From the NCBI GenBank assembly GCA_031285405.1, contig JAITWH010000015.1, positions 38,826 through 102,825 of the forward strand: a stretch of DNA of 64,000 nt, in the 5' to 3' direction. The position numbers and the translations under genes are program-made. Below are positions 4,587 to 63,897 of the stretch, in pieces (the first letter of the stretch is position 1; the number at the start of each line of letters is the position of its first letter). This DNA comes from Alistipes sp. (GTDB taxonomy: Bacteria > Bacteroidota > Bacteroidia > Bacteroidales > Rikenellaceae). The notes beneath the pieces were generated by a model. It worked only from the letters and a program-made list of their open reading frames with translations, was not told the DNA's origin and did no database searches.

Positions 4587-4622
4587 ATCTGTTGTTTGAT
4601 TTGCGTAAAGATAAGGATAATA

Positions 4623-4653
4623 ATTGAAAGTGGAAAATTGAAAATTGAAAGTG
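4623..4653. repeat. Heptanucleotide tandem repeat (ATTGAAA)n followed by GCTACGCAAA
   Basis: attgaaa gtggaaa attgaaa attgaaa gtg, then ggGCTACGCAAA. Confidence 0.8.
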
Positions 4654-4666
4654 GGCTACGCAAATC

Positions 4667-5959: not shown

Positions 5960-5962
5960 CTA

Positions 5963-6047
5963 TAACTAAGACTTTAGTTATATAACTAAATCTTTAGTTA
6001 AAGAGTTGTAACTAAAAGATCACACAATAGAACTAAAAACTTAGTTA
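5963..6047. repeat. TAACTAA-N4-TTAGTTA palindrome array (two 18-nt units at 20-bp period plus a degenerate third)
   Basis: TAACTAAGACTTTAGTTA 5963-5980, TAACTAAATCTTTAGTTA 5983-6000, then taactaaaa...actaaaaacttagtta. Confidence 0.75.
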
Positions 6048-27370: not shown

Positions 27371-27401
27371 TGGCGAATAACATTAACGCAGGTGTAAAAA
27401 A

Positions 27402-27518
27402 GTGTTACGGATGTAACGCTTTAAAAACGGCAAGTGTTACCGATGTAACGCTTAAAAATGGGCATGTGTTACCAATGTAACACTTGAAAACGGGCAAGTG
27501 TTACCAATGTAACACTTT
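27402..27518. repeat. Tandem array of four AGTGTTACC(G/A)ATGTAACGCTT palindromes, 32-bp period
   Basis: Units start at 27402, 27434, 27466 and 27498; each is a near-palindrome with a 4-nt loop. Confidence 0.9.
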
Positions 27519-39157: not shown

Positions 39158-39225
39158 GATTAGTGATTGGTTGACCACGCAGACTTTCGCGTCAGCACTA
39201 ACCACTGATCACTAACCACTAATTA
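39158..39225. repeat. Heptanucleotide repeats (CACTAAC/CACTGAT/CACTAAT)n and an inverted partner; overlaps infC stop
   Basis: cgattagtgattgg ... cactaac cactgat cactaac cactaat ta. Confidence 0.8.
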
Positions 39226-39822
39226 CCGTTTGGGTTTGGGGGCGAGCATCATGGTCATGCGCTTGCCCTCCAACTTGGGCATCATCTCGACCTTTGCCAA
39301 CTCCTCCAAATCGGTGGCGAAACGCAGCAGCAGGATCTCGCCCTGCTCCTTGAACACGATCGAGCGGCCGCGGAAAAAGACATAGGCCTTCACCTTGGAG
39401 CCCTCCTTGAGAAAGTTCTCGGCGTGCTTCAACTTGAAGTTGTAGTCGTGGTCGTCGGTCTGCGGTCCGAACCGGATCTCCTTGATCACCACCTTGATGG
39501 CGTTGGCTTTGATCTCCTTCGCCTTCTTTTTCTGCTGGTAGAGGAACTTGGAGTAGTCGACGATTCGCACTACGGGCGGGTCGGCGTTGGGGGAGATTTC
39601 GACCAGGTCGAGCTCCATCTCGTCGGCCTTGCGCAGAGCGTCGCGCGTGGACATCACGGTCGAACCCTCGACCTCGTCGCCCACCAATCTGACCTGCGGG
39701 GCGGTGATGTGTTCGTTGATCCTGTGCAGCGCCTCCTTCAGAGGCATTCTGCGACCCCGATCCCTGCCGCCGCCTGCTGGACGGGGCTTGGGGGCTACAT
39801 AAGGTTTTTTTACCGGTGGCAA
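39223..39822 (-). CDS. infC: Translation initiation factor IF-3 (TTG start as called)
   Basis: 199 aa; [77 protein letters not shown]. Confidence 0.96.
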
Positions 39823-42880: not shown

Positions 42881-44329
42881 TCACAGCGAATCGCCGAAAT
42901 CCTTGCGGAATTTCTCCATCAACCGGTGCGGCCAGTCGGTGGTGGGCTCCATCTTGCCCATGAAGAATCGCAGCACGCGCGGCTCGTAGGTCCACCTCAG
43001 TCCGCCGATCAGCTTGCGGTTGTCGTAGAGCCATTCGAGGCGGTCGATCACATAGTTGATCTGCGACAGAGTGAACACCCGTCGCGGCACCGCCAACCTC
43101 AGCAGCTCGACATCGGAGAGTACCTCCACCCCGTTTTCGTCCCTCACACTCGACATCGTGCCGCGCTCCATGCCGCGAATGCCGCCCGCCAGGAAGAGCG
43201 CCGAGGCTAAGGCCGCCGCCGGATATTGACTCTGCTTGAGGTGGTCGCAAAACTCCATCGCGTTGACGTGGGCGCCCAACACACCCGGAGGCGTCACCAT
43301 CGGAATGCCCTTCGATTCGGCAGTCTCCACCAGATACTTTATGAAGGTGGGACTCTGCGAGATCATCGTCTCGTCCAACGTTTCGTACAACCCGACTGCG
43401 ATCGCCTCGACCTCCCTCACCGACATGCCGCCGTAGGTCAGGAACCCCTCGAACAGCGGGATCATCACCTCCATCTTTTGGTACAGCTCGTGGCGGTTGG
43501 TGCAGATGCCGCCCCCGCGCGACGACGAGAGCTTGCGCGCCGAGAAGTAGACTATGTCGGCCAGCCCGGTCATCATCCTCAAAATGTCGCCCATCGAGTT
43601 CTCCATCCACTCCTTCTCGCGCTGCTTCACGAGGTATGCGTTCTCGCCGAGAAGGCTCGCGTCGAGCACCAGCATGATGCCGTACTTGTCGGCCACGCGC
43701 CTCACATCCATCATGTTGGAGATCGAGAATGGCTGCCCGCCGATCAGGTTGGTCGACGCCTCCATGCGGATGAAGGGAATTTTGTCGACCCCCGTCGCCT
43801 CGATGAAGGCGGTGAGCTTGTCGATATCCATGTTGCCCTTGAACGGGTTGTCGGACTTGAGCTCCAGCGCGTCGTCCTTCAGCAGCTCGACGATGCTTCC
43901 GCCCACCTCGGTGATGTGGGCCAACGTTGTGGTGAAGTGGTAGTTCATCGGCACGATCATGCCCGGCTTGACGAAGGTGCGCGCCAACACATTCTCCGCA
44001 GCGCGACCCTGATGTACGGGCAGCAGATATTTCTTGCCCAGCACATCTTCGACAGCCTTCTGCATCCTCACGAACGACTGCGAACCGGCGTAGGCGTCGT
44101 CGGCCCTCATCATTGCGGCCAACTGGTTGTCGCTCATCGCGTTGACGCCGCTGTCGGTGATCATGTCGAGGAACACGTCGGAGGTGCTCAACCCGAAAGT
44201 ATTGAAGCCCGCCTCCTTGAGCGCGTCCAGTCGACGTTCGACGGGAACCAGGTGCAGTTTCTGAACTATGCGAACCTTGTGGAGCTCCAGCGGGAGATCC
44301 TCGTTTTTGTAAAATTTGACGGTTGCCAT
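42881..44329 (-). CDS. Tryptophanase / tyrosine phenol-lyase-fold beta-eliminating lyase
   Basis: 482 aa; DVFLDMITDSGVNAMSDNQLAAMMRADDAYAGSQSF; LPVHQGRAAEN; GGQPFSISNM; LRLAVPRRVFT; LRWTYEPRVLRFF. Confidence 0.85.
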   Translation of the reverse strand: MATVKFYKNEDLPLELHKVRIVQKLHLVPVERRLDALKEAGFNTFGLSTSDVFLDMITDSGVNAMSDNQLAAMMRADDAYAGSQSFVRMQKAVEDVLGKKYLLPVHQGRAAENVLARTFVKPGMIVPMNYHFTTTLAHITEVGGSIVELLKDDALELKSDNPFKGNMDIDKLTAFIEATGVDKIPFIRMEASTNLIGGQPFSISNMMDVRRVADKYGIMLVLDASLLGENAYLVKQREKEWMENSMGDILRMMTGLADIVYFSARKLSSSRGGGICTNRHELYQKMEVMIPLFEGFLTYGGMSVREVEAIAVGLYETLDETMISQSPTFIKYLVETAESKGIPMVTPPGVLGAHVNAMEFCDHLKQSQYPAAALASALFLAGGIRGMERGTMSSVRDENGVEVLSDVELLRLAVPRRVFTLSQINYVIDRLEWLYDNRKLIGGLRWTYEPRVLRFFMGKMEPTTDWPHRLMEKFRKDFGDSL

Positions 44330-44338
44330 TTTATTTAA

Positions 44339-44424
44339 GTGATTAGTGATCAGTGGTTAGTGGTTAGTGGTTAGTGCTACGCGAGTGTTACCTATGTAAC
44401 TAAATCCGCCGCCGGCGTTCCGGC
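44339..44424. repeat. Composite repeat: (GTGATTA/GTGGTTA)n heptamers + GCTACGC + AGTGTTACCTATGTAACT palindrome + AACG-loop hairpin (copy H)
   Basis: Heptamers 44339-44375, GCTACGC 44376-44382, palindrome 44384-44401, hairpin GCCGG-CGTT-CCGGC 44411-44424. Confidence 0.85.
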
Positions 44425-47857: not shown

Positions 47858-47889
47858 AATCGTTGAGTTTTAAATAACTTCTTATCGTA

Positions 47890-47927
47890 TAACTATAAAT
47901 TTAGTTATATAACTAAGTTCTTAGTTG
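47890..47927. repeat. TAACTAA-N4-TTAGTTA palindromes, 20-bp period
   Basis: TAACTATAAATTTAGTTA 47890-47907 and TAACTAAGTTCTTAGTTG 47910-47927. Confidence 0.75.
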
Positions 47928-47942
47928 AAGCCTCCGGCCCCT

Positions 47943-57257: not shown

Positions 57258-57300
57258 AGTAAAAACTGCGTAGCCAAAATCGCCGTCGGCGTTCCGACTA
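57258..57300 (-). repeat. AACG-loop hairpin (copy I) fused to GtrA stop codon, with GCTACGCA tail
   Basis: Reverse strand TAGTCGGAACGCCGACGGCGATTTTGGCTACGCAGTTTTTACTACGCA. Confidence 0.8.
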
Positions 57301-59810: not shown

Positions 59811-59832
59811 CGTTCAAAGATAGTGAAAAAAT

Positions 59833-60023
59833 AGTGGTTAGTTATTAGTGGTTAGTTGTTAGTGCTAACGCGGCGCAAAAATCAGTGGTTAGTTATTAGT
59901 GGTTAGTGCTAACGCGGCGCAGTGCTACGCAAAAAATCTGCGTTAGCTAATTATCAATTATCAATTATCAATTATCAATTGAACCGCGTAGCACTAACCA
60001 CTAATCACTAACAACTAACCACT
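59833..60023. repeat. Large heptamer-repeat complex: two GTGGTTA-type arrays, an ATTATCA x4 array, and an inverted CACTAAC-type array
   Basis: 59833-59877 and 59883-59921 direct copies ending GTGCTAACGCGGCGCA; (attatca)4 about 59950-59977; inverted copy about 59985-60023. Confidence 0.85.
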
Positions 60024-63738: not shown

Positions 63739-63804
63739 TTTTCGTCGCAAAGATAGCTAAAATCGGGGTAACTTGATTTTTTTTCGGGAGGGGGCAATTA
63801 AAAA

Positions 63805-63884
63805 AGCGTTACATCGGTAACGCTTTTTTTTTGGCCGAGTGTTACCTATGTAACGCCTAAAAAAGGGCGAGTGTTACCGATGTG
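63805..63884. repeat. Second array of AGTGTTACC-NATG-TAACGCTT palindromes, about 32-bp period
   Basis: Units at 63805, 63838 and 63870 (last one partial); first unit followed by a T-run. Confidence 0.85.
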
Positions 63885-63897
63885 TAAAAACCGCGTA

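Follow-up and report, generated by a model that had tools for sequence, protein, structure and literature searches.

Composite of repeat modules between tnaA and a SpoU-family methylase gene

The window analysed here is a 64-kb stretch of a 1.90-Mb MAG, 82% complete, from an uncultured relative of Alistipes in the Rikenellaceae; by tryptophanase, its closest named records are Alistipes sp. UBA936 and UBA934. Within it, an 86-bp composite of repeat modules (44339–44424) is located between a tryptophanase-like gene (tnaA) and the gene for a SpoU-family RNA methylase (Table 1). Read on the forward strand, the composite consists of the heptamers AGTGATT AGTGATC AGTGGTT AGTGGTT AGTGGTT with a terminal AGT, then GCTACGC (hereafter the joint), a single G, AGTGTTACCTATGTAACT, and finally TAAATCCGCC with GCCGG-CGTT-CCGGC, the last of these at 44411–44424. 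This layout of heptamers, GCTACGC, palindrome and hairpin, proposed in a first-pass annotation of the DNA, matches the sequence base for base. The palindrome claimed for the middle of the composite is indeed present at 44384–44401, but it is imperfect, with full pairing only for GTTAC/GTAAC.

At its outer end the heptamer arm comes to within 8 bp of the start codon of tnaA. At the opposite end, the methylase reading frame crosses the hairpin module and terminates in the palindrome, with the C-terminus AGTPAADLVT translated from module sequence. A hairpin module of this type usually has a joint after it; here it is fused to the palindrome instead. The composite has one arm only, and its fold is no better than those of shuffled sequences (z = −0.66). 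It is a partial, incomplete copy of the larger structures described below, which we call hairpin islands.

The palindrome of the composite, AGTGTTACCTATGTAACT, is also found at 27399–27513, as four copies with a 32-bp period, and at 63836–63886. In the same two regions the palindrome AAGTGTTACCNATGTAACACTT is present as four tandem copies with a 32-bp period (27399–27518) and as inverted or paired copies near 63.8 kb (63803–63890). Elsewhere, relatives of AAGTGTTACCNATGTAACACTT precede a T run and have a terminator-like look.

Table 1. Positions of the composite, its neighbours and related features (window coordinates unless another locus is named)
Feature	Position	Strand	Basis
Tryptophanase-like gene (Beta_elim_lyase), downstream neighbour	42881..44329	−	ORF/domain
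Heptamer arm, five AGTGRTY units + AGT	44338..44375	+	Sequence; tandem-repeat scan (5.6 copies)
Joint GCTACGC, inner end of arm	44376..44382	+	Sequence; intergenic enrichment
Imperfect palindrome AGTGTTACCTATGTAACT	44384..44401	.	Repeat family D4
SpoU methylase stop codon, now within palindrome	44392..44394	−	Reading frame
Hairpin module, minus-strand reading GCCGG-AACG-CCGGC-GGCGGATTTA	44401..44424	−	Repeat families D2, D7
AATTGAA arm + joint GCTACGC	4622..4661	+	Joint search, tandem-repeat scan
AGTGGTT arm + variant joint GCTGACGC	39194..39226	−	Tandem-repeat scan, repeat families
Hairpin module + joint GCTACGC	57268..57298	−	Joint search, repeat families
Larger island; inward AGTGGTT arms 59832–59863, 59884–59911, 59992–60023, several joints	59832..60023	.	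Repeat families I1, I13, I23
IS1595-family insertion sequence, 227-aa transposase	L293 1254–1993 (G000:C18 near 46.1–46.5 kb)		

The joint is concentrated between genes and closes several kinds of module

Over the window as a whole GCTACGC is not enriched, with 14 sites against 9.8 expected and at least 14 in 11 of 100 shuffles. What stands out is where the sites lie: eight of the 14 are intergenic, where about one was expected from an intergenic share of 5,065 of the 64,000 bases (8%). The density of GCTACGC in a 456-kb sample of the genome was 2.66 per kb in intergenic and 0.15 per kb in coding DNA (∼17-fold), and that of GCTAACGC was 1.66 and 0.03 per kb (∼50-fold), individual gene ends being approximate as genes in the samples were called by a simple codon-usage script. 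When 616 kb were considered, GCTACGC was the top intergenic-enriched heptamer, count-weighted, of the 1,333 in its GC class, at 17.6-fold. Over the whole genome, GCTAACGC occurs 281 times, compared with 105 for the reversed control pattern.

Listing and classifying the flanks revealed that the joint, as GCTA(A)CGC, closes the inner side of five kinds of array (AGTGGTT, AATTGAA, AATTAAG, AATCATG and AATTGAT), and that it also ends two GC-rich hairpins, CCGGAACGCCGG-GCGATTTTA and GCGGCAACGGCCGC-GCGATTTTA. Classification of 291 intergenic joints showed these arrays and hairpins to be combined in numerous ways. Since the same joint closes all seven kinds and the islands are dispersed copies, the earlier suggestion of a single modular system, as opposed to independent noise, is supported; the other joint sites it had named, at 4655, at 59.9 kb and at the ends of hairpin copies, likewise carry GCTACGC. 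The joint is mostly followed by RR-N-R-Y, or else by further joints or other palindromes. Chains of the type array-J-hairpin-J-array-J (where J is the joint) are present, the spacers between tandem joints are 8–10 nt, and modules may be stacked before a joint that is unchanged in other respects (L031 near 10187 versus L045 near 10572). The larger island of the window contains a nested AATTGAT array at 59949–59980. Many joints sit outside complete islands.

Heptamer arrays are the arms of inverted-repeat islands

The full plan of an island is a heptamer arm of ∼32 nt, GCTA(A)CGC, a core, GCGT(T)AGC and an arm of the same kind in inverted orientation. Islands are ∼100–130 bp in size, sometimes with nested or extra modules, and the five complete islands tested had folding energies of −47 to −86 kcal/mol (z −8 to −15). 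Array lengths are stepped near 25, 32 and 39 bp, and the heptamer units are position-specific within the arms, those of AGTGGTT type included, a pattern that copying from a master arm would produce. Neighbouring arrays face inward in 76 cases, 58 of them of the same type, and outward in one, with no outward pair of the same type. The near-fixed lengths, the position-specific units and the inward facing together identify the arrays as arms of inverted-repeat islands; the heptamers are not a separate, free tandem-repeat family. The arms show no sign of concerted evolution within islands, their similarity being 0.885 within and 0.887 between islands.

Each arm unit has a stop codon in the inward direction and, as the unit length of 7 is not divisible by 3, the repeat places a stop in all three frames, so that an arm terminates translation in any frame. 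In 56 cases an array contains, or starts within, the stop codon of the gene upstream. A T precedes 52 of 76 AGTGGTT arms, compared with a 20% background; for the other arms the counts are 33/73 (AATTGAA), 27/51 (AATCATG) and 2/21 (AATTAAG).

Orthologous junctions in congeners are empty

In two congeners (G004 and G008) almost nothing separates the methylase stop from the tnaA start. More generally, over 180 conserved junctions, the median length of joint-bearing gaps is 163 bp in the source genome and 6 bp in congeners. Of the 139 co-directional junctions whose congener gap does not exceed 30 bp, 52 are at least 60 bp in the source genome, and several of the expanded junctions are 4-bp gene overlaps in the congener. 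More than one-third of the tight operon junctions examined have been opened by islands, in essentially one species, a clear example of operon junctions remodelled recently and on a massive scale. GCTACGC had been raised as a possible recombination or insertion junction, but as a genomic target this is not supported: at 86 conserved gene junctions there are 83 joints in the source genome and four at the orthologous congener junctions, which indicates that the joint arrives with the modules and is not a pre-existing target.

The AGTGGTT arm with its joint (GTTAGTGCTAACGCR) has 93 sites in the source genome, whereas 119 relatives, among them ten congeners, have none, and the longer arm and joint form GTGGTTAGTGCTAACGCG had no match in the GTDB species contig collection with the source genome excluded. 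Heptamer arrays number two in ∼1.08 Mb of sampled congeners and 145 in 456 kb of the source genome. From these genome comparisons, the island swarm appears to be nearly private to one species. The joint is not wholly so, as the congener G007 has 16 tandem joints against two for the control pattern (C3:55065, C7:4930, C13:6541, C22:12877, C23:7264 and C28:17793 among them), with a spacer near RACGCCCAA judging from match counts and positions. Since G007 is without the AGTGGTT arm, the joint may predate the arms. AATTATG-type arrays are found in 46 of 394 Bacteroidales genomes, the examples read being mostly solitary and of variable length.

No relatives of the islands were matched in phage and plasmid records, the 19 scattered single matches of a 15-mer in viral contigs are within chance expectation, and an Rfam scan matched tRNA alone. 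A literature search for the string GTCATTGCGAG gave nothing relevant, and the open-licence literature yielded no account of heptamer arms that end in a common joint. As a separate observation, mixed heptamers (TGAATTG/CGAACTG) make up a single array of 108 bp in the congener G002, at L120 10211–10318.

Origin of the islands

The islands are short, non-coding, dispersed and intergenic, are bounded by terminal inverted repeats and have an empty site in relatives, properties that they share with MITEs; the 86-bp copy itself, having a single arm, is without the terminal inverted repeat. The composite is probably a partial copy in a species-specific swarm of non-autonomous palindromic elements, MITE/BIME-like hairpin islands that number in the hundreds and whose parts end alike in GCTACGC or GCTAACGC. 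We favour their assignment as a variant of known MITE/BIME-type elements and claim membership of no named family. An island sits in the gap of a few bases that separates adjacent genes; if transcribed, it would fold into a long hairpin. Copies would be moved in trans by an enzyme, landing probably at TA-containing sites such as TAA or TAG stop codons. As an arm stops translation in any frame, it could replace the stop codon of a gene with little harm; heptamer arms as frame-independent stop signals that permit landing on a stop codon constitute a testable model. The islands may then have grown and mixed by addition or exchange of modules beside a joint, via insertion or template switching, and the chains of modules may stem from template switching at the joint. 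At 44339–44424, the pieces joined are a single arm and its joint, a short palindrome and a hairpin module, and the methylase now ends within them.

A search of the 82%-complete genome for a mobilising enzyme found no match to Y1_Tnp (RAYT), DDE_Tnp_1 or RVT_1. The one match to IS630 DDE_3 is below the cut-off and lies in an ORF unlike a transposase, and the IS1595-family element is a single copy whose own ends, AGGTTCAAGATAACTTTA, are unrelated to the island arms; none of these five families thus supplied a transposase with ends matching the islands. There was no excess of flanking duplications of 2–9 bp, a TA duplication being indistinguishable from TA element ends.

Several other explanations were weighed. 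Local growth by template switching or hairpin-templated repair at microhomologies (TTAG/GCTACGC), without transposition, would account for module chains in which each module is closed by a joint, for the 8–10-nt spacers and for the stacking seen at L031 and L045. On its own it does not explain why whole islands that share arm and core are dispersed over many junctions, and we regard it as unlikely. Slightly less likely still is that the islands are host-owned RNA regulatory hairpins (attenuators, processing sites or mRNA stabilisers) under selection. Placement at operon junctions and very stable folds are consistent with such a role, and ERIC and Correia hairpins alter mRNA decay (PMC2229807, PMC10969869), but the islands are absent at orthologous congener junctions, adjoin many unrelated genes and have arms that are no more alike within an island than between islands. 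Co-option of some copies as regulators is possible.

Heptanucleotide SSRs of the LSSR/STRR type, generated by polymerase slippage and lying by chance near unrelated hairpins, are a very improbable source. PMC4679880, citing Mrazek 2007, gives heptamers as a favoured repeat length, and the solitary AATTATG arrays of other Bacteroidales would suit slippage. The arrays here do share the 7-nt tandem unit, but their near-fixed lengths, position-specific units, inward facing and common joint on every array type are at odds with free copy number and interchangeable units, and for this genome slippage is largely refuted. Movement of REP/BIME elements by a RAYT transposase seems extremely improbable. 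GCGTAGC does place a GTAG upstream of the hairpin module, and BIMEs are composite mosaics of palindromes (PMC3733652, PMC2817692), but Y1_Tnp is missing from the 82%-complete genome, the common form GCGTTAGC is without GTAG and about equally frequent between genes (83 versus 133 in the 456-kb sample), and most islands are built on heptamer arms and not on a REP hairpin.

Comparison with known repeat systems

Like ERIC (127 bp), Correia/NEMIS and RUP elements, the islands are intergenic sequences of ∼100–200 bp with terminal inverted repeats, predicted long transcript hairpins and TA-like ends, adjoining gene ends (PMC2229807, PMC10969869). They differ in that their arms consist of 7-nt units, that one joint is common to several types of arm and core, which combine into mosaics, and that neither target duplication nor cognate transposase was found in the 82%-complete genome. 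With REP/BIME elements (GTAG and CGTC REPs; PMC3733652, PMC2817692) they have in common high-copy intergenic palindromes in composite mosaics, and CGTC-type sequences seem to be present inside islands (PMC3733652); unlike them, the islands come with no RAYT/Y1 gene that we could find, do not conserve GTAG, and have heptamer arms, which are not part of REPs.

The TAACTGA heptamer repeats of Beggiatoaceae, Cyanobacteria and some Bacteroidetes also form short intergenic sets of 7-nt units near start or stop codons, and a related unit, AGTTATC, occurs in island arms; those repeats were described, however, as direct, upstream of start codons and almost never inverted (PMC4679880), whereas the arms of islands form inward-facing pairs on either side of a core that bears the joint. 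BrickBuilt of Porphyromonas gingivalis (PMC4596501) is a Bacteroidales MITE with tandem repeats, as here, but its minisatellite lies inside the MITE and the heptamer arrays of islands are terminal arms instead. For bacterial heptamer arrays there are long-standing catalogues but no mechanism; in the present genome such arrays form the inverted arms of insertion-like islands.

Spacers of tandem joints and further palindromes

The source genome has 34 tandem joints with 9-nt spacers, which give an extended joint, GCTACGC-RRYRYYYAR. Spacer positions 1, 2, 4, 5, 6 and 9 are 91–100% conserved as purine or pyrimidine, with A/G or C/T mixed at most of these positions. Pairwise comparison of the spacers gave 1427 transitions and 658 transversions, an excess that shared ancestry and the usual bias towards transitions may exaggerate. 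It is conceivable, though we consider it doubtful, that unrelated modules (heptamer arms, two hairpin types and tagged palindromes) were assembled at one shared joint by an undescribed joining activity, with a recognition signal that is read as purine/pyrimidine or diversified by transitions. If the joint were such a joining or recombination signal, it would point to an undescribed mobilising activity.

Other palindromes recur alongside these modules. The double palindrome TATAACTAAANNTTTAGTTATATAACTAAANNTTTAGTTA is an intergenic module at 5961–6000 and 47888–47930, as well as at L190 near 10117 and L047 near 14940, and is also found within islands. Palindromes of the form CGTCATTGCGAG...GCAATCCAG occur within islands at L032 16509–16560, L042 16243–16330 and in many others, and resemble the REPs with a CGTC tag in PMC3733652. 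Islands make the same use of a second palindrome, GTAGATCCCTCGTCG...GGGATGAC.
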